A stretch of 64,000 bases of DNA, taken from assembly GCA_022448265.1 (NCBI GenBank), contig JAKVCC010000016.1, positions 1 through 64,000 on the forward strand. The letters are read 5' to 3'. The stretch comes from Pirellulales bacterium. Lineage in GTDB: Bacteria; Planctomycetota; Planctomycetia; Pirellulales; Lacipirellulaceae. The notes under the pieces are model-generated. The model had not been told where the DNA came from and did not search any database. It saw only the letters and a list, made by a program, of their open reading frames with translations. Numbering within the stretch: the stretch's first letter is position 1; the number at the start of each line of letters is the position of its first letter. Below are positions 33,758 through 54,924 of this stretch, piece after piece. Position numbers and translations under genes: made by a program.

Positions 33758-36700
33758 TTGGCTACGAGCGACTTAGGCCGGTTCTCCGGCGAACCGAATT
33801 CCCCTGGCGCACCCGCTGTATCTGCTGTTGGCCCATGGGTTGGCACGCGGGCACTGTTGATGCCCCTCTGTTCGCTGCGGCTGACGGTGGTGCTGTTTGC
33901 GTTTTCGATCGTGTTGGTGCTGGCCGGTACGTTGGCTCAAATCGATCACGACATTTGGTATGTCATTCACAATTATTTTCGATGTTGGATCGCATTTATT
34001 GATCTGCAGGTTTTCTTTCCCCGTTCGTGGAACGTGCCAGGAACGTTTCCGTTTGCCGGCGGTTGGCTGTTGGGGACGGCTTTGGGCATCAACCTGATAT
34101 CGGCACACGCCTTTCGTTTTAAGGTCACGGCATCGGGCGGGCAGCTCAAGTGGGGCTTGTTTCTGGTCGTCGCCGGTGTGGCACTGACTTACTGGGTTGT
34201 GCAAAGCGGCTTGGACGATACGGTCGAAAGTGAGCTGTCGCCGGCGTTTCGCGGCGGTTTGTGGCACGGCATGCGCTTTCTTTTGGGGATCGGCACGCTT
34301 GGTCTGGCCTATTGGCTGATGCAGGTTTACCCCAGGGCAAAACAGTCCAGCGCGGTTTGGCTGTGGTGGTTTGGTGCGGTTGCCGCAGCGGTGCTGGGCG
34401 GCCTTGCCATTTGGCTTTTTATGCACCCGGATGTGCAGCTTGACGCGTCCGGATTGAGGATTCTTTGGCAACTCGCCAAGGCGACTGCGGCCGGTCTTGT
34501 GCTGTACGCCGGCTGCCACTGGGTGTTTGGTCGCCGCGCGGGCATCGTGCTGTTGCACAGCGGTATTGCCCTGATGATGTTTAACGAATTGCTTACAGGC
34601 TTGCAGGCGGAAGAAGCCCACATGCGGTTGGTAAAAGGCCAGACACTCACCTATGCGGAAGATACGCGGTCCGTGGAGTTGGCGGTGATCGATAAATCGA
34701 GCCCCACCCAGGACAAGGTCACACGGATACCCGGCTGGATGCTGACCGAATCGCTCCAAACTAACAAGCCCATCGATCATCCGGCGTTGCCATTCACGGT
34801 GCGCGTTGTCGAATACCTGGAAAATGCCTCGTTCCGGGGCCTGCAGCCAGGCGAAGAAGCCATTGCTAACCGGGGCGCCGGATTATTGCATGTCGCCAGT
34901 TCGCGGGTGGCGGCTACGGGGGTTGACCAGGAGCAGCGGGTCGATATTCCCGCAGCGTATGTAGAGCTGCGCACCAGGAACCGTCCCGCCCAGACGGGGA
35001 TTTATCTTGTCACTCCATACATGGATCTGGTTGAAAAAAACTACACCGAAGCGATCGACCTGGGCGACACGCCGTTTGAAATAAGCATGCGGTTTCGTCG
35101 CTTACACAAGGATTATTCAGTTACGCTTGTCAAGTTTACGCACACCACCTACGTGGGGAGCAAAACACCGAAAAACTATGAATCGGTGGTGCGATTGAAA
35201 GATCCCGCGCGCAACGTGGATCGAGAGCTCAAGCTGTGGATGAACAACCCGCTCCGCTACGGGGGCGACACGATTTATCAGTCGGGATTTGACCCCAATA
35301 ACGACGATTACACAGATCTGCAGGTGGTGACCAATTTTGGCTGGATGATTCCCTATGTGGCTTGCATGATCGTGGCAATTGGCATGCTGGTGCATTTTGG
35401 CCAGACCATGGTCAAGTTTCTGCGGAAGCAAGAAAGAGAGGCCGAGCAAGCCGTTCAGGGGCGTGCAGGGAACGAGGACGGAGTTGCGGCAGACGCCAGC
35501 CAGCCCACTGTTGGTCGACGGGGGGGCTTTGTGCCGGCGCTGGTGGTTGTCTGTTGCTTTGCGATTGTCCTCTACCAGGCCGGACGTAGTGCCGACGATG
35601 CCGACCAGATGCAGATTGATCAATTTGGAAAATTGCCCATCGCCTACGGCGGGCGTGTTCAGCCAATGGATTCTTTTGCCCGCAATACATTACGGGCCCT
35701 CTGCGGAAAACAAACTTTCATAGATACATGGAACCGTAAACAACCTGCTATACGTTGGTTTTTGGATACGATATCCGAAGCCAATTCCTGGCGCGACCAT
35801 CGGGTGTTGCGTATCGATAATTTGGATGTATTGCAGATGTTTGATTTGGATGTGCGGAAGGGGTTTTGCTACAGTTTCAGTGAGCTCAGCGAAGAAGCGA
35901 AGGAATTCGATCGCCAGGTCCTGCTTGCTCAGACGGCTGGCCAAGCCGCAGAGGAAGGTGGTCCACCTTTAGAGCTTGCTCAATTGAAAGTGCTTGAGCT
36001 TAAGCAAAAAATTAATCGTGTATTTGCGCTAATCGACGTGTTTTCGGCTCTTGAGTTGGGGGGGGATTCCCCCGAGGAGGTCATGCTGAGTCTTCGCACC
36101 GCCCAGAGGAAGGTAGAGGTGCTGCGCGAAGTAGGGGCCCGACCGGTGTCCCCCAGTGTGCCTGGAGAGACCTGGGAAAACGTTTTGACAGCCGAGCTAC
36201 ATGGCCTCTACGCCGCGATTCCAAAGATTGCCCCAGCTGCGGGTAACTGGAAAAAGAACGCGGCCTCCGCGGCCTTGTTGGGCCTGGTGCGCGCATACCG
36301 CGAGTCCGAGACGCGGGAATTCAACGAGCAGTTGGTGTCTTATCAGGAGCTGATAGCAGACCGGGCCGCTGCCGAGGCGAAGTACAACGAGAAGCTGGGA
36401 TCGGCCGGCCATCTCAAGCCGGCCGAGCGGCTAAATCTCAGCCGGATTGGCTTTGAAGCCTTTTACAACAAGTTGAGCCCGTTCCTTTTGGCTATGGTTT
36501 TTTATCTTCTCGCTTTTTTGCTGGTGGCGATGTCGTGGCTGGGCTGGACGGCTACGCTCAACCGCTCGGCCCACTGGCTGCTATGGTTCACCTTTGCCTT
36601 GCATACCTACGCGCTTGTATGCCGGATTTATATTTCGGGCCGGCCGCCGGTGACCAATCTCTATTCGTCGGCCATCTTTATCGGCTGGGCAGCGGTTTTG

Positions 36701-37420
36701 TTCGGATTGGTCTTGGAAAAAATCTATCGCGGAGGTATCGGCAATTTACTGGCGGCGGTGATCGGTTTTCCCACGCTCTTTATCGCGCATAACCTAGCCG
36801 GTGATGGCGATACGTTTATGGTGCTGCAGGCTGTACTCGACACCCAGTTTTGGCTGGCGACACACGTGGTGTGTATTACGCTCGGCTATGCCACGACGTT
36901 TTTGGCGGGAATGCTGGGTGTGATTTACGTTCTAATGGCGCACGTGGTGCCCTGGCTCAAAGAGGCGGATCGCCACCAACTGGTGCGCATGATCTACGGC
37001 ACCCTTTGCTTTGCCACGTTTTTTAGCTTTATTGGTACGGTGTTGGGCGGACTTTGGGCTGACGATTCCTGGGGCCGATTTTGGGGTTGGGATCCAAAAG
37101 AGAACGGGGCCCTGATGATCGTCATTTGGAACGTCTTGGTCCTGCATGCCCGTTGGGGAGCTATGGTGCGGCAGCGGGGCCTGGCGGTATTGGCCATCTT
37201 TGGTAATGTCGTGACCGCATGGTCCTGGTTTGGGGTGAATCAGATGGGAGTCGGCTTGCATGCCTACGGGTTCACTGAAGGCCGGACGCTGTGGTTATGT
37301 GTTTTTGCGCTGAGCCAGCTGGCTGTCATGGTGCTTGGTTGCGTGCCGCGGCACGTGTGGTTGCCAGAGGCGTGGGTTGGGCCTGCAGCGGGCGACGCGT
37401 CCCGCACGGAACGTAGCTAA
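33758..37420 (+). CDS. ccsBA: Fused ResB-CcsA cytochrome c biogenesis protein
   Basis: 1,220 residues combining CcsB (ResB) and CcsA of the System II cytochrome c maturation pathway, which carries heme across the membrane and attaches it to CxxCH sites. The start is uncertain: the TTG at 33758 is the longest frame; the ATG at 33860 (MPLCSLRLTVVL) is also sensible. The N-terminal half has several membrane helices and the ResB-type RFRRLHKDYSVTLVKF region. A periplasmic linker of about 300 residues includes KLPIAYGGRVQPMDSFARNTLR. The C-terminal half carries the CcsA heme-handling segment WGRFWGWDPKENGALMIVIW. It supports the multiheme or monoheme c-type proteins of this lineage, for example the fusion at 55223-57064. 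Confidence 0.93.
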   Translation: MATSDLGRFSGEPNSPGAPAVSAVGPWVGTRALLMPLCSLRLTVVLFAFSIVLVLAGTLAQIDHDIWYVIHNYFRCWIAFIDLQVFFPRSWNVPGTFPFAGGWLLGTALGINLISAHAFRFKVTASGGQLKWGLFLVVAGVALTYWVVQSGLDDTVESELSPAFRGGLWHGMRFLLGIGTLGLAYWLMQVYPRAKQSSAVWLWWFGAVAAAVLGGLAIWLFMHPDVQLDASGLRILWQLAKATAAGLVLYAGCHWVFGRRAGIVLLHSGIALMMFNELLTGLQAEEAHMRLVKGQTLTYAEDTRSVELAVIDKSSPTQDKVTRIPGWMLTESLQTNKPIDHPALPFTVRVVEYLENASFRGLQPGEEAIANRGAGLLHVASSRVAATGVDQEQRVDIPAAYVELRTRNRPAQTGIYLVTPYMDLVEKNYTEAIDLGDTPFEISMRFRRLHKDYSVTLVKFTHTTYVGSKTPKNYESVVRLKDPARNVDRELKLWMNNPLRYGGDTIYQSGFDPNNDDYTDLQVVTNFGWMIPYVACMIVAIGMLVHFGQTMVKFLRKQEREAEQAVQGRAGNEDGVAADASQPTVGRRGGFVPALVVVCCFAIVLYQAGRSADDADQMQIDQFGKLPIAYGGRVQPMDSFARNTLRALCGKQTFIDTWNRKQPAIRWFLDTISEANSWRDHRVLRIDNLDVLQMFDLDVRKGFCYSFSELSEEAKEFDRQVLLAQTAGQAAEEGGPPLELAQLKVLELKQKINRVFALIDVFSALELGGDSPEEVMLSLRTAQRKVEVLREVGARPVSPSVPGETWENVLTAELHGLYAAIPKIAPAAGNWKKNAASAALLGLVRAYRESETREFNEQLVSYQELIADRAAAEAKYNEKLGSAGHLKPAERLNLSRIGFEAFYNKLSPFLLAMVFYLLAFLLVAMSWLGWTATLNRSAHWLLWFTFALHTYALVCRIYISGRPPVTNLYSSAIFIGWAAVLFGLVLEKIYRGGIGNLLAAVIGFPTLFIAHNLAGDGDTFMVLQAVLDTQFWLATHVVCITLGYATTFLAGMLGVIYVLMAHVVPWLKEADRHQLVRMIYGTLCFATFFSFIGTVLGGLWADDSWGRFWGWDPKENGALMIVIWNVLVLHARWGAMVRQRGLAVLAIFGNVVTAWSWFGVNQMGVGLHAYGFTEGRTLWLCVFALSQLAVMVLGCVPRHVWLPEAWVGPAAGDASRTERS

Positions 37421-38194: not shown

Positions 38195-39034
38195 ATGTAT
38201 TACATCGACCCGCACATTCACATGGTTTCGCGAACTACCGACGACTACGAGACTCTGGCAAAGATGGGCTGCGTCGCGGTGAGCGAGCCCGCTTTTTGGG
38301 CCGGTTACGATCGCGGAAGTTCGGCAGGATTTCGCGATTATTTCGAGCAATTAACCAGCTTCGAGGCTAAGCGCGCGGCCAGCTATGGCATCCAGCACTT
38401 CACTTGGCTATGCATCAATGCTAAAGAAGCGGAGAATGTATCCCTCTCACGTGAAGTCATTGCGATGATCCCCGAATTTCTGGATCGGGCGGGCGTATTG
38501 GGTATCGGTGAAATCGGCCTGAATAAGAATACACGCAACGAAGCTACCATTTTTCTCGAGCACCTAGATCTGGCTGCGAAAACAGATGAGCAGATTCTGA
38601 TCCACACGCCCCACCTGGAAGATAAGTATCAGGGGACGCGGATGATTCTCGATATGCTCACAGGCGATCGTCGTCTCGACCGCTCACGTATATTGGTCGA
38701 TCATGTGGAAGAGCACACCGTGCGATGGGTGCTGGAGGCTGGGTTTTGGGCGGGGATGACGCTCTACCCGGTAAGTAAGTGCACGCCCGAACGGGCCGTC
38801 GATATGGTGGAGCTGTATGGCCCGGAGCGTTTGCTAGTCAATTCGGCCGGTGACTGGGGGCCTTCCAAGCCGACCGCCGTACCGGATTTTATCTTGGAAA
38901 TGCGCAGTCGCGGCCATAGCGAGCAAGCCATTCGCCAAGTCGTCTACGAAAACCCAGTGAAATTTTTCAGCCAGAGCCGGAATTTTACCTTTGAGGCGCC
39001 CGAGTGGGCTGAGGCTGAGGTGCGCCACCCGTAG
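38195..39034 (+). CDS. eboB: TatD-family hydrolase, EboB-like
   Basis: 279-residue metal-dependent hydrolase of the TatD/amidohydrolase fold, probably cytoplasmic. The His-x-His pair is in IDPHIHMVSRTTDDYE. Further ligands are Glu in GEIGLNK, His in LIHTPH, His in DHVEEHT and Asp in VNSAGDWGPS. The VSRTTDDYETLA start, AVSEPAFWAGYD, and the GFWAGMTLYPVSKCTPER segment are typical of the EboB branch rather than of TatD nucleases. EboB belongs to the ebo metabolite-traffic cluster; the matching prenyltransferase and phosphatase genes lie 12-16 kb away at 50823-54123. Direct substrate is unknown. Confidence 0.83.
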   Translation: MYYIDPHIHMVSRTTDDYETLAKMGCVAVSEPAFWAGYDRGSSAGFRDYFEQLTSFEAKRAASYGIQHFTWLCINAKEAENVSLSREVIAMIPEFLDRAGVLGIGEIGLNKNTRNEATIFLEHLDLAAKTDEQILIHTPHLEDKYQGTRMILDMLTGDRRLDRSRILVDHVEEHTVRWVLEAGFWAGMTLYPVSKCTPERAVDMVELYGPERLLVNSAGDWGPSKPTAVPDFILEMRSRGHSEQAIRQVVYENPVKFFSQSRNFTFEAPEWAEAEVRHP

Positions 39035-49965: not shown

Positions 49966-50826
49966 ATGAAGCTGGCTTTCAGTTCGAATGCCTACATGCA
50001 ATTTTCCATCGAGGAGACGATTCAACGTATCGCTGAGCTCGGTTACGCGGGCATCGAACTTTTGGCTGATGTTCCTCACGCGTGGCCGGCGGGCCTCTTG
50101 CCCGAGCGGCGCGAGGCGATCCGGACGTGTCTCGAAACCCATTGTTTGACGATTTCGAACATCAATGCATTTATGATGAATGCGGTCGGCGACCCTCGCC
50201 AGCCGTATTGGCATCCCGGTTGGACCGATCCCGATTGCCACTACCGAGCCATTCGTCGCGAGCACACAAAGAGGGCTTTGCAGCTGGCTTCAGACTTGGG
50301 CGCACCGCATATCACGACCGAGCCTGGCGGATTGGTAACGGCTGAGCAATCTTGGCAAGAAGCGGCCGACATTTTCTACGACGAGCTGATGCCCTGTGTG
50401 GAATTAGCCGAACAGCTTGATGTGGGCCTCTTGATTGAGCCTGAACCGGAGTTGCTGATTGAGCGTTTTGACCAGTACCTTGAGTTTGCAGGACGTATCG
50501 ATTCAGAACAAATCGGTTTGAATTTCGATATCGGTCATGCTTATTGCGTGGGTGAAGACCCTCAAGACTGGGTGCCGCGCATGGCCGAGCAGACGGTGCA
50601 CTACCACCTGGAGGATATCGCTGACACGCGCGTGCACGCGCATCTGATTCCCGGCCACGGTGCGATTGATTTTGGGGCGACGCTGCGGGCCATTGCCGAG
50701 ACGGGCTATGCAGGCTGGTTGACTGTGGAACTCTATCCGTACATTGATGCGCCGGACGACGCGGCGCGCGAAGCGCATAGCTATCTGAGCAAGGCGCTTG
50801 CCTGCCTGAGTTCATCCACGACATGA
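49966..50826 (+). CDS. Sugar phosphate isomerase/epimerase-type TIM barrel protein (first copy)
   Basis: 286-residue xylose-isomerase-like TIM barrel. GAGG seven bases before the ATG supports the start. Metal-site motifs: EPEPELL, NFDIGHAYC, HYHLEDIAD, GHGAIDF and VELYPY. It opens the run of genes to 54924 and overlaps the UbiA gene by four bases (ATGA), indicating coupling. It resembles the second barrel at 51892-52740; together they may stand in for missing ebo enzymes. Substrate not known. Confidence 0.88.
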   Translation: MKLAFSSNAYMQFSIEETIQRIAELGYAGIELLADVPHAWPAGLLPERREAIRTCLETHCLTISNINAFMMNAVGDPRQPYWHPGWTDPDCHYRAIRREHTKRALQLASDLGAPHITTEPGGLVTAEQSWQEAADIFYDELMPCVELAEQLDVGLLIEPEPELLIERFDQYLEFAGRIDSEQIGLNFDIGHAYCVGEDPQDWVPRMAEQTVHYHLEDIADTRVHAHLIPGHGAIDFGATLRAIAETGYAGWLTVELYPYIDAPDDAAREAHSYLSKALACLSSSTT

Positions 50827-51797
50827 ACGATCTGCGTGGCTCTTTGCTGACAACGCGTGGCAGTGCCAAGGACCGTCTCTTGGCGGTCGCTCAGTTGATG
50901 CGGCTGGCCAACGTGTTTACCGCGATGGCGGACGTCTGGATGGGTTTCATCCTGGTAGTGGGTAGCTTGCAGCCAGTGCTTCTCTCGCTGGGACTCACGA
51001 TGTGTTCGTGTCTACTCTATACGGCGGGAATGGTACTCAATGACGTGATGGACATCAGCGTGGACTCGGTGCAACGTCCTGAGCGCCCCTTGCCGAGCGG
51101 TCGAGTTTCGCTGCACTTTGCCGCAGTACTGGGCTGGAGTTTGCTTGGCGCGGGCGTACTGGCGGGCTTTGGGATGTCAGTGCTGAGCCGCAATGCGGCA
51201 CCCGGACTTATTGCCTGGGCGCTGAGCGTGATGATTGTCGCGTATAATTCATGGCTAAAAAATACGTGGTGCGGCCCATTTGCCATGGCGGCCTGCCGGG
51301 CGGCAAACGTGTTGCTGGGCATGAGCCCCCGAATCGTCCAGTTGGACCCCTACGATTGCTTTCTCGTCTTAGATACGCTGGCGCCGGCTGCTGGCATTGG
51401 CTGTTACGTCTGCGGGATTTGCTGGTTTGCCCGGGAGGAGCACGGAATTAGCCGACGAGGTCCCTTACTGTTGGGTGTGGCGCTCATGACGGGTGGCCTG
51501 ATCCTTATCGGTGCGGCGCCGTGGTGGGAGCTGGCGGCCTCCTGCCTGCAGCGTCCCCATTGGCAATGGATCGCAGCGTGGAGTGTGCTTGGCGTGCTGG
51601 TGCTCTGGCGATGCATTGGGGCGATCTGTAAGCCTGTCGCCGGTCGCGTGCAACAAGCGGTGGGCTATGCCATATTGCTAATTATTCCCATCGATGCCGC
51701 TATTTGCTGGGGCTATGCCGAATGGGGTTGGGCGTGCTTGGTACTAGCTTTGATCCTGCCAGGCAGGCTATTATCCCGTTGGCTTCGGGTGACCTGA
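50823..51797 (+). CDS. eboC: UbiA-family prenyltransferase, EboC-like
   Basis: 324 residues with about 8-9 membrane helices. The first Asp-rich motif is NDVMDISVD within LLYTAGMVLNDVMDISVDS, followed by RPERPLPSG, as in UbiA enzymes that move prenyl groups onto aromatic acceptors at the membrane. A second DxxxD motif is not obvious. Its order (barrel, UbiA, barrel, phosphatase) and the RPERPLPSGRVS segment recall EboC of ebo clusters. It starts inside the last codons of the preceding gene. Confidence 0.82.
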   Translation: MNDLRGSLLTTRGSAKDRLLAVAQLMRLANVFTAMADVWMGFILVVGSLQPVLLSLGLTMCSCLLYTAGMVLNDVMDISVDSVQRPERPLPSGRVSLHFAAVLGWSLLGAGVLAGFGMSVLSRNAAPGLIAWALSVMIVAYNSWLKNTWCGPFAMAACRAANVLLGMSPRIVQLDPYDCFLVLDTLAPAAGIGCYVCGICWFAREEHGISRRGPLLLGVALMTGGLILIGAAPWWELAASCLQRPHWQWIAAWSVLGVLVLWRCIGAICKPVAGRVQQAVGYAILLIIPIDAAICWGYAEWGWACLVLALILPGRLLSRWLRVT

Positions 51798-51891
51798 GTT
51801 TCGCTGCGGAAACGCGAAACGGGGATCTCTTCGGTGCGGATATGACTGGGAGCCGGGCTTTTACAAACCGACCCATTGGGGCGAACGCGAT

Positions 51892-52740
51892 ATGCGGCTT
51901 GGTTACAACACCAATGGTCTGGCCCATCACAGCCTGCCGGAGGCATTGCGTTTGTTGGCGTCGCTCGGTTACCGGAGCGTGGCCATCACCATCGATCACG
52001 CCGCTCTCAATCCTTATACATCCAGGTACAACATCGAACTGCAGGAAATAGGTGCCTTACTTTCCCAACTGAACCTGCGGTCGGTCATCGAAACGGGCGC
52101 ACGATACTTGCTGGATCCGCGTCGCAAGCACCAGCCGACACTGGTCACTTCGAAGTCAGACGGTAGGCCCCAACGGGTGGAGTTTCTCCGTCATGCGGTT
52201 GACATGGCCGCCGCGCTGGGCAGCGATTGCGTATCGCTCTGGTCGGGCACGCTGCCAGACGGGGATGCGCGGGGAGACGGCCTGTGCCGGCTGGCCGACA
52301 GCTTGCACACGGTCCTTGAATATGCCGAGCGCCGCAACGTGTGGCTGGGTTTCGAACCGGAGCCCGGCATGTTGATTGACAGCATGCAGAGCTGGCAAGA
52401 GCTATTGGAACGAATCGATTCGCCCCGGCTGGGTCTGACCCTCGACATTGGTCATCTGCACTGTCTGGGAGAAGTCCCTATCAGCGAGGTGATCCGTTGC
52501 TGGGCCGGCAGGTTACTCAACGTGCACATCGAAGACATGCGACAAGGCGTCCACGAGCATCTGATGTTTGGAGAAGGGGAGATCGATTTCCCCCCCGTGC
52601 TGGCCGCGCTCGCTGAAGTTGAGTATTCCGGTGGGGTCCACGTCGAGTTGAGCCGTCATAGCCATGCGGGTCCCGCTGCCGCCAGGCAGGCGATGACGTT
52701 CTTGCAACCTCAAATCGATGCCGCGTTAGCTGCTCAGTGA
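51892..52740 (+). CDS. Sugar phosphate isomerase/epimerase-type TIM barrel protein (second copy)
   Basis: 282-residue TIM barrel with the same pattern as the first copy: GFEPEPGMLID, LTLDIGHLHCLGEVP, NVHIEDM, GEGEIDFPPVL and VELSRHSH. The start ATG has no strong Shine-Dalgarno sequence. It follows the UbiA gene after 94 bases. It is shorter than EboE of cyanobacteria, so the name EboE is not used; it may be a functional counterpart. Confidence 0.87.
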   Translation: MRLGYNTNGLAHHSLPEALRLLASLGYRSVAITIDHAALNPYTSRYNIELQEIGALLSQLNLRSVIETGARYLLDPRRKHQPTLVTSKSDGRPQRVEFLRHAVDMAAALGSDCVSLWSGTLPDGDARGDGLCRLADSLHTVLEYAERRNVWLGFEPEPGMLIDSMQSWQELLERIDSPRLGLTLDIGHLHCLGEVPISEVIRCWAGRLLNVHIEDMRQGVHEHLMFGEGEIDFPPVLAALAEVEYSGGVHVELSRHSHAGPAAARQAMTFLQPQIDAALAAQ

Positions 52741-52803: not shown

Positions 52804-54123
52804 ATGGCTGAACATATCGCTCTGCTCTCGATTCCTGGACTTCGGCGTCAGGACCTCGCGGCTATGCCCCAATTGGAGGCCCTGATGTCGGGCGGCGATA
52901 CGGCCGAACTGGTGCCTGGTTTCCCGGCAGTGACCTGCCCGGTGCAAGCGAATATGACCACAGGCCGTCCGCCCCGCGAACACGGGGTGGTCGCCAATGG
53001 TTTCTATTGGCCCGAGCGGAATCAGGTCGAGATGTGGACGTCCGCCAATGATTGCGTCGAACGACCCCAGTTGTGGGACATCTTACACCATCACGATCCG
53101 GCACTGCGTTCGGCGGTGTGGTTTCCGCTACACAGCAAAAAATGTGGGGCCGACTACGTTTGCACCCCTGCGCCGATTCACAATTCCGATGGGAGCGAAT
53201 CGTTATGGTGCTATACGCGTCCCGAATCGCTCTATCCGGATCTTCAGGAAGCCTTGGGGCATTTTCCCCTTCAGCACTTTTGGGGGCCGATGGCCAACAT
53301 CAAGTCTTCTGCTTGGATTGTCGATTCGGCTCTGCATGCGGCGGAGGCATTTCGCCCCAATTTGTTTTATATCTATTTGCCGCATCTTGACTATGCGGCG
53401 CAAAAGTTCGGGCCCGATTCGGATGCGGCCCGTCAGGCGCTGGCCGACCTGGATGACCAACTCGGCAAGCTGAACCGCGGATTCTCCGCGGCTTACCAGG
53501 ATCAGCATCTGTTGTGGCTGGTGGCGAGCGAATACGTGATCACACCGGTGAACCATGTGAGCTATCCGAACCGCGCGCTCCGCGAAGCGGGCCTCTTGTC
53601 GGTTGAGTGGCACCAGGACGGCGAACATTTGGACCTTGCCGCGAGTCGGGCGTGGGCGATGGTCGACCACCAGATGTCGCACGTCTTCGCCCGGGATGTC
53701 GAATCGCTGGGTCAGGCCAAGGAGGTTCTGGCCAGTCTGGCGGGGGTGGAAGAGGTGCTCACTCGCGCCGAGCTCGATCGCTACGACTTGACGCACCCTC
53801 GCTGCGGCGATCTCGTCGCGATCTCCGCTTCCGATAGTTGGCAAGCCTATTATTGGTGGCTCGACGACAGCCAGGCGCCGGCCTACGCCCGCACGGTCGA
53901 CATCCATCGCAAGCCAGGCTACGATCCGGTCGAGATGTTTTGGGATCCAATACACAAGTGCATTCCACTGGATGCAACGCTCGTTCAAGGCTCGCACGGC
54001 GCACCGCCGTACAGCCCCGCGCAGCGGGGAATTCTGTTGAGCTCCGAGCGGGGCACCTTCGTCGAGCGACCGCTGGCCGACACCGACGTAGCTGATATCG
54101 TCCTCCGCCAATTCGGAATCTAA
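52804..54123 (+). CDS. eboF: Alkaline-phosphatase-superfamily hydrolase (phosphodiesterase/pyrophosphatase type), EboF-like
   Basis: 439 residues. The Thr nucleophile region is FPAVTCPVQANMTTGRPPREHG, followed by metal ligands in LPHLDYAAQKFGPDS, ASEYVITPVNH and DHQMSHVF, typical of the nucleotide pyrophosphatase/phosphodiesterase branch. No signal peptide is seen. Its place after the UbiA and TIM-barrel genes parallels EboF in ebo clusters. The reaction would be cleavage of a phosphoester or pyrophosphate of an unknown metabolite. Confidence 0.83.
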   Translation: MAEHIALLSIPGLRRQDLAAMPQLEALMSGGDTAELVPGFPAVTCPVQANMTTGRPPREHGVVANGFYWPERNQVEMWTSANDCVERPQLWDILHHHDPALRSAVWFPLHSKKCGADYVCTPAPIHNSDGSESLWCYTRPESLYPDLQEALGHFPLQHFWGPMANIKSSAWIVDSALHAAEAFRPNLFYIYLPHLDYAAQKFGPDSDAARQALADLDDQLGKLNRGFSAAYQDQHLLWLVASEYVITPVNHVSYPNRALREAGLLSVEWHQDGEHLDLAASRAWAMVDHQMSHVFARDVESLGQAKEVLASLAGVEEVLTRAELDRYDLTHPRCGDLVAISASDSWQAYYWWLDDSQAPAYARTVDIHRKPGYDPVEMFWDPIHKCIPLDATLVQGSHGAPPYSPAQRGILLSSERGTFVERPLADTDVADIVLRQFGI

Positions 54124-54210
54124 AGAGAACGGGATGGGTTTAATTTTTGTGATCATGTGAGGATGCGTCACCAGCCACTAGGTCTTTGGAGCCCAGAACA
54201 CACGGTCGCC

Positions 54211-54924
54211 ATGAACGGGCACTTTGGAATCATCTTCGATGTGGATGGAGTCATTGCAGATTCAGAAGCCGTCAACGTGCGCGCAACTTCCCAGGCCTTC
54301 GCCGACATCCTGGGAATTCGCCGTGTGGCCGCGGAAGATTTCCAAAAAGGTCTCGGACGGGGGGCGGCAGAGTATGTCCGAGCCGGCGCCGCATCCCATC
54401 GAATGAAGTTGTCTCCGGACCAGGTGCAGAGCCTCGTGATGGCCCGACAGGAGAATTTCCTGGAAATCTTGCGAGAAGAGACGCTCCCGGCCTATCCGGG
54501 CGTCCTGAAATTAATCTTTAGCGCTTTGGCCAGCCAGGAATTCAGTTTGGCAATTGCCACCAGTAGCACGCGCGGCAAGTCGCTGTCGGTACTCGCATCG
54601 GCACAGATTCCCGTCGAAGAAATGGTGTATGTATGTGGCGACGACGTCGCGCGCAAGAAGCCAGATCCCGAGGTCTTTCAGATAGCCTGTCGGCGGTTGT
54701 CGCTGGCCCCCAAGTTTTGTGTTGTGATTGAAGATTCCCCCTACGGCATAGAAGCGGCTAGCCGGGCAGGATGTGTGTCAATGGCCGTTACCAATACATG
54801 CACCCGCCGCGAATTGCGCCGCGCCGACCAAACTGTCGACAGCCTATGCGAAGTCAGCCTAGCAACTCTCCGCACCCTACTGAACACGCAGAGCTCTCAA
54901 GGTGGCGGTCTGGATCGGACTTGA
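54211..54924 (+). CDS. HAD-superfamily phosphatase (beta-phosphoglucomutase-like)
   Basis: 237 residues from the ATG at 54211; a GTG at 54157 or ATG at 54163 are longer alternatives. HAD motifs: FDVDGVIADSE (nucleophile Asp10 and Asp12), ATSSTRGKSL (Ser/Thr motif II), the Lys of RKKPDPEVF, and VIEDSPYGIEAA. The fold resembles beta-phosphoglucomutase and small-molecule phosphatases. It follows the EboF-like gene by 87 bases and probably closes the cluster. Confidence 0.85.
   Translation: MNGHFGIIFDVDGVIADSEAVNVRATSQAFADILGIRRVAAEDFQKGLGRGAAEYVRAGAASHRMKLSPDQVQSLVMARQENFLEILREETLPAYPGVLKLIFSALASQEFSLAIATSSTRGKSLSVLASAQIPVEEMVYVCGDDVARKKPDPEVFQIACRRLSLAPKFCVVIEDSPYGIEAASRAGCVSMAVTNTCTRRELRRADQTVDSLCEVSLATLRTLLNTQSSQGGGLDRT

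Follow-up and report, generated by a model that had tools for sequence, protein, structure and literature searches.

A Pirellulales locus with two xylose isomerase-like TIM barrels around an EboC-type prenyltransferase: probable membership of an INO1-type ebo pathway

Genes at the locus and their ebo counterparts

The window, by which we mean the whole stretch of 64,000 nucleotides that was analyzed, lies on contig C8 of a Pirellulales genome (G000; 3.64 Mb in 87 contigs, 97% complete). Five genes of interest are found on its + strand, encoding EboB, a first TIM barrel (TIM1), an EboC-type UbiA prenyltransferase, a second TIM barrel (TIM2), and an EboF-type phosphodiesterase (Table 1).

Table 1. 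Positions of the five window genes and of the INO1 gene found elsewhere in the same genome
Feature	Position	Strand	Description
EboB-type TatD-like hydrolase	38195..39034	+	10.9 kb (~11 kb) upstream of TIM1; Pfam TatD
TIM1	49966..50826	+	286 aa; TIM barrel of the xylose isomerase type, proposed as a compact form of EboE; Pfam AP_endonuc_2
EboC-type UbiA prenyltransferase	50823..51797	+	4-base overlap with TIM1; EboC/SCO3242-type
TIM2	51892..52740	+	282 aa; TIM barrel of the xylose isomerase type, from the INO1-associated subfamily
EboF-like protein, type I phosphodiesterase / alkaline phosphatase superfamily	52804..54123	+	Pfam Phosphodiest E 2.6e-48
INO1, ebo-type inositol-phosphate synthase	G000:C23:285275		contig C23, outside the window

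The UbiA protein scores 173 bits against the NCBIfam EboC model (cut-off 250) and 146.5 bits against SCO3242 (cut-off 260), which is below both cut-offs, and it is EboC-type by best match; Pfam UbiA recognizes it at E 6.7e-12. The EboF-like protein aligns at 39% to the Streptomyces and at 35% to the Aureibacter ebo-cluster protein. EboB was matched to operon-borne EboB in the whole-genome search at E 5.7e-65, and it scores 459 bits against an EboB profile whose own seeds include this window sequence.

Counterparts of EboB, EboC, and EboF from the classical eboABCDEF cluster are all present in the window genome, and a TIM barrel lies directly before EboC, as in planctomycete operons where EboE precedes EboC. 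In contrast to the classical cluster, the genes are split over at least 3 places and two short TIM barrels are present instead of the missing members. No EboD was found in the genome at E 1e-90 or better (NF004852 search), no EboE match exceeded the 250-bit cut-off, the sole match to the EboE model being TIM1 at 23-24 bits, and no EboA was detected with a 5-row EboA profile, which a diverged EboA could escape. INO1 is absent from the window gene cluster and is found on another contig. EboA was seen in 5 of 30 genomes and in 0 of the 14 with TIM1, using a profile partly made from three of those five.

A gene for a HAD-family phosphatase (54157-54924) starts 33 bases 3' of EboF and is probably co-transcribed with it. 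It was rejected as part of the module, as a phmmer search at E 1e-15 against the ORFs of the collected loci matched only the gene itself. Farther upstream, at 33758-37420, the window encodes a single 1220-aa chain that combines ResB-like and cytochrome c assembly domains.

The two TIM barrels and their metal-site residues

Pfam AP_endonuc_2 (xylose isomerase-like TIM barrel) matches TIM1 at E 2e-39 and TIM2 at E 4.8e-40. The two proteins align end to end with 32% identity over 280 aa (BLASTP E 3e-33; profile-profile comparison E 6e-52), a likeness that, judged by these scores, is homology rather than chance. The open reading frames of the preliminary description were confirmed, and the motifs that it had picked out (EPEP-L, DIGH-C, H-ED, G-IDF, VEL) follow in the same order in both barrels when aligned. 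In TIM1 numbering, E158, E160, D188, and D217 are invariant in 104 TIM1 and 48 TIM2 sequences, while each of H191, H224, H226, and E255 is replaced in no more than one sequence per set. An AlphaFold2 model of TIM1 from a 31-row alignment gave a confident barrel (mean pLDDT 90.6, pTM 0.89), compared with a pLDDT of 36.7 from the single sequence.

The preliminary description had also spoken of a duplicated isomerase working on one sugar-like or cyclitol-like substrate. Paralogy stands, and a local duplication is ruled out by the tree, in which TIM1 and TIM2 fall into separate groups, each with relatives from other phyla. Since TIM1 has kin in haloarchaea and TIM2 has separate kin in Streptomyces and others, the split is old, and on this phylogenetic evidence the two barrels are old paralogs. 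A common substrate for both would be a supposition, and the pocket residues of the two differ: R71, K79, H80, R255, H256, and H258 are conserved in TIM2, and at these places TIM1 carries F, Y or W, P, Y, and acidic residues. Neither protein was found to group with a different known enzyme, since neither passes any curated NCBIfam cut-off, including those for known sugar epimerases and inositol enzymes (IolO, IolE, UlaE-type, Hyi). The top NCBIfam scores are 66 bits for TIM1 with IolO (cut-off 300) and 69 bits for TIM2 with PRK13209 (cut-off 317).

The barrels have their fold and four metal-site positions in common with UlaE and the tagatose and psicose 3-epimerases. At the places of UlaE E155, D185, H211, and E251, which presumably bind metal in that enzyme, TIM1 holds E158, D188, H214, and E255 and TIM2 holds E155, D185, H212, and E252, H212 being H in 41 of 48 TIM2 sequences. 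UlaE E66-G68-R70 additionally matches E67-x-G69-x-R71 of TIM2, but UlaE has no counterparts of H191, H224, H226, or the second Glu of EPEP. Both barrels carry DxxH and HxH where UlaE has N188, F220, and N222. Such a pattern would suit two metals, of the kind found in endonuclease IV or xylose isomerase; the two-metal idea rests on the residue pattern and endonuclease IV, with the alignment to E. coli XylA usable only up to H271.

These residues could also be taken to mean that TIM1 and TIM2 are not isomerases but metal-dependent phosphodiesterases of the endonuclease IV or CbiR kind, cleaving a prenyl-linked intermediate. TIM1 E158, D188, H191, H214, H224, and H226 align with endonuclease IV E145, D179, H182, H216, D229, and H231, which we take to be its zinc ligands, UlaE departs from them at the three places just named, and the CbiR model gives TIM1 29 bits. 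However, in the column of endonuclease IV H109 TIM1 has E and TIM2 has W, and the structural neighbors are epimerases and xylose isomerases, although the fold alone is not decisive. We consider such phosphodiesterase activity unlikely.

TIM1 as a probable compact EboE

TIM1 is most likely a compact EboE, as its distribution, operon position, and residues suggest. Among 294 genomes of the phylum, 35 have TIM1 (300 bits or more), 185 have EboE (E 1e-40 or better), and none has both, so that EboE occurs in 0/35 TIM1 genomes versus 185/259 others (naive Fisher p 1.5e-17, kinship ignored). The TIM1 threshold falls in a score gap between 301 and 268. The next match below it, a 268-bit TIM1-like protein in a 54% complete genome (G282), occurs together with EboE and carries the signature NYWTVPRY at the eight TIM1/EboE positions described below. 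When the genomes are grouped into 90 families, TIM1 is present in 15 and EboE in 65, and the two families with both (f59, f79) have them in different genomes. This mutual exclusivity speaks for the earlier suggestion of an EboE replacement in the case of TIM1.

EboE lies directly before EboC in planctomycete operons L220, L222, L227, and L233, and TIM1 lies directly before EboC in L044, L057, L098, L200, L201, L210, and the window. The gene order is EboD-EboB-EboE-EboC-EboF in L227 and L222, INO1-EboB-TIM1-EboC-EboF in L200 and L201, and INO1-EboB-TIM1-EboC-TIM2-EboF in L056. In L044 (10877-13669; relative G167), the genes of an ABC-2 type transporter, two permeases and an ATPase, immediately precede TIM1 in the same orientation.

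Profile-profile comparison gave E 3e-15 for EboE with TIM1 and E 5.8e-8 for EboE with TIM2, TIM1 and TIM2 being far closer to each other. Eight residues (N67, F69, W86, T101, T118, P120, R222, and Y257) are common to TIM1 and EboE and different in TIM2; they are conserved in 25-27 of 27 distinct EboE and 98-104 of 104 TIM1 sequences, and form a signature that was picked after the alignment was seen. Among the positions inspected, there was no place at which EboE agreed with TIM2 against TIM1. The EPEP, DxxH, HxH, and E active-site residues are likewise common to TIM1 and the 27 distinct EboE. EboE differs from TIM1 at N65, E119, H212, and T253, and no conserved EboE residue aligns with the predicted TIM1 metal ligand H214. 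The tree places EboE, as a single clade whose branch measures 4.15, among the TIM1 sequences, a position that is weakly supported (28/98). EboE (NF035939) is also about 100 residues longer than TIM1, and its model, with a cut-off of 250 bits, scores TIM1 at 24.3 bits and TIM2 at 11.4 bits, both below.

The nearest named relatives of TIM1, taken from the best 80 of 490, are Planctomycetota such as Bythopirellula polymerisocia. Among these 80, where enough following sequence was available, EboC was found near TIM1 in 58/71, TIM2 in 28/62, EboF in 22/51, and EboB in 15/47, and about half of the 80 loci have no TIM2 or EboF nearby. The full order TIM1-EboC-TIM2-EboF is found, for example, in Bythopirellula, Adhaeretor, Lacipirellula, Aeoliella, and Botrimarina, and the genes are scattered in many others. 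The adjacency of TIM1 and EboC recurs in families f3, f14, f16, f18, and f53 and in four haloarchaea. This recurrence, together with the 58 of 71 testable named loci from the best 80 of 490, argues against the view that TIM1 and TIM2 serve carbohydrate catabolism as ordinary sugar-phosphate epimerases and stand beside EboC by chance. The closest known structures, a tagatose 3-epimerase-like protein and UlaE, and the top NCBIfam scores, to epimerases and IolO, would suit a catabolic role, but those scores are far under their cut-offs and catabolic enzymes are not expected to be exclusive with EboE and EboD. Such a role thus seems highly improbable.

The haloarchaeal examples are on plasmids of Haladaptatus, Halocatena, Natronococcus, and Halobaculum, where EboB, TIM1, UbiA, and a TIM barrel follow in that order. 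Their TIM1 is 41-43% identical to the window TIM1 and groups in the tree with TIM1 of family f14 (92/98). INO1 and a phosphatase are found alongside in Halocatena, Natronococcus, and Halobaculum, and a phosphatase only in Haladaptatus. The gene order is that of the window, but the second barrel differs from TIM2: it scores 236-249 bits with the TIM1 profile and 146-157 bits with the TIM2 profile, and it has the N, N, T, T, and Y of TIM1 type without F69 and P120. These scores and residues rule out its assignment to TIM2, and by the same comparison it is a third subfamily.

TIM2, INO1, and a proposed pathway

In the same 294 genomes, TIM2 is found in 133 and EboD in 63 with an overlap of 0 (naive Fisher p 3.5e-20, kinship ignored), TIM2 being counted from 190 bits and the matches below, most of them on TIM1 genes, being left out. 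A PF01658 (INO1) match is present in 161 genomes, among them 126 of the 133 with TIM2 and 5 with EboD. In a tree of 33 planctomycete INO1 rows, with the remaining INO1 genes classified only in part, the INO1 of these five EboD genomes (G011, G041, G071, G106, G153) falls outside the ebo-linked group, and that of the window genome clusters with operon-borne and EboC-adjacent INO1. TIM2 is a frequent partner of INO1 and is not strictly required, because 35/161 INO1 genomes and the INO1-containing operons L200 and L201 lack it. INO1 precedes EboB in L200, L201, L202, L094, L056, and L093, taking the slot that EboD holds before EboB in L221, L222, L227, and L233. The preliminary description had suggested that the barrels might replace EboD as well. 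The exclusivity of TIM2 and EboD (0/133 versus 63) agrees with this, but carbocycle closure would be unexpected for a barrel of this family, so EboD's replacement as ring-maker must be INO1, with TIM2 as its frequent partner.

By family, TIM2 and EboD both occur only in f2 and f4, and there in different genomes: family f4 has eight genomes with EboD and eight with TIM2 and INO1, and family f2 has one and two. That exclusivity reflects only phylogeny, with two planctomycete clades carrying different gene sets and no functional replacement, is strongly disfavored: gene states do cluster by family, which the naive Fisher values ignore, but exclusivity still differs at the family level (p 2.4e-7 and 1e-4), and in an RpoB tree of 76 genomes (90 planned, 80 taken, 77 matched, fragment G104 left out) TIM1 changes at least 10 times, 7/7 independent pairs swap TIM1 for EboE (p 0.016; the chosen genomes all had one or the other, which makes this a record of repeated swaps and not an unbiased test), and 9/11 independent pairs differing in TIM2 are opposite in EboD, none differing the same way (p 0.004).

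Relatives of TIM2 are found in an INO1-type ebo cluster of actinobacteria, whose genes carry the NCBI names inositol-3-phosphate synthase, SCO3242 prenyltransferase, sugar phosphate isomerase, EboA, TatD, EboE, and alkaline phosphatase. TIM2 shares 46.5% identity with the barrel in a Streptomyces cluster of this type and 46-51% across actinobacterial barrels, and the bacterial TIM2 clade has support of 100/99 in the tree. As in these clusters, a TIM2-type barrel stands beside UbiA in the window; UbiA, TatD, and phosphatase counterparts are present, and INO1 is of the same group. The Streptomyces cluster retains EboE and EboA, whereas the window has TIM1 in the place of EboE and INO1 elsewhere in the genome. 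An unannotated Gemmatirosa cluster combines a TIM2 relative with INO1, EboB, EboF, EboC, and EboE. No description of an INO1-type ebo cluster was found in the open-access papers searched.

We consider it probable that the locus belongs to a planctomycete INO1-type ebo pathway in which TIM2 acts on an INO1-derived cyclitol phosphate and TIM1 is a compact EboE. INO1, encoded on the other contig, would form a six-ring cyclitol phosphate, with EboD otherwise supplying a different cyclitol. TIM2, which has a conserved basic patch, would act on this phosphorylated cyclitol as a metal-dependent isomerase, epimerase, or dehydratase, a step special to the INO1 version. We infer that its substrate is phosphorylated because of the basic set listed above and because the INO1 product is a phosphate; by the same pocket comparison, the substrate of TIM1 may be uncharged or different from that of TIM2. 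EboC would prenylate the head group at the membrane, EboF would take off phosphate or pyrophosphate, and EboB would act as a hydrolase. TIM1 would carry out the step of EboE, which is likely to be common to both pathway versions because EboE or TIM1 occurs with both ring-makers. The two versions would yield one product.

More tentatively, and with somewhat less than even confidence, we suggest a general scheme with two interchangeable ring-makers, EboD or INO1 plus a dedicated TIM barrel, the latter in planctomycetes, actinobacteria, a gemmatimonad, and haloarchaea, after which a shared prenyltransferase, EboE or compact EboE, phosphatase, and EboB would finish a prenyl-cyclitol lipid. If so, the ebo product would be a prenylated cyclitol or its phosphate, and TIM2 would convert the INO1 product into the acceptor of EboC. 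The exchange of EboD for INO1 would narrow the head group to a cyclitol reachable from either enzyme, and TIM1 would let EboE be traced in genomes missed by curated models. This exchange would also account for an earlier remark that eboD is missing from two of three planctomycetes (PMC5133447).

The same paper describes actinobacterial EboA fused in cases to a xylose-isomerase-like domain (PMC5133447). Scytonemin export in Nostoc needs ebo genes, which occur in many phyla, and an eboE deletion strain of Nostoc punctiforme exists (PMC6282210); inositol is unmentioned in the accessible parts of both papers. Ubi-297, another UbiA homologue, accepts 8-hydroxyquinoline-2-carboxylic acid for farnesylation in vitro (PMC9235831), a result that speaks neither for nor against a cyclitol acceptor.

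Several loci show other combinations of these genes. Second-tier TIM1-like proteins (186-268 bits), treated as other subfamilies and left out of the counts, are found in 16 genomes (including G080:C35 and G067:C228), some of them close in sequence to the second haloarchaeal barrel; 9 of the 16 genomes belong to the 35 that have INO1 but no TIM2 (p 1.1e-5, post hoc). In family f4 loci L033, L035, L036, L038, L039, and L049, INO1 adjoins an EboC-type gene with no TIM barrels or phosphatase nearby. In Hymenobacter volaticus (L244) and Roseomonas haemaphysalidis (L245), TIM2 kin and INO1 are found with a Gfo/Idh/MocA oxidoreductase, a YcaO-like protein, and a PIG-L deacetylase, without UbiA, and these clusters possibly make another inositol-based product.
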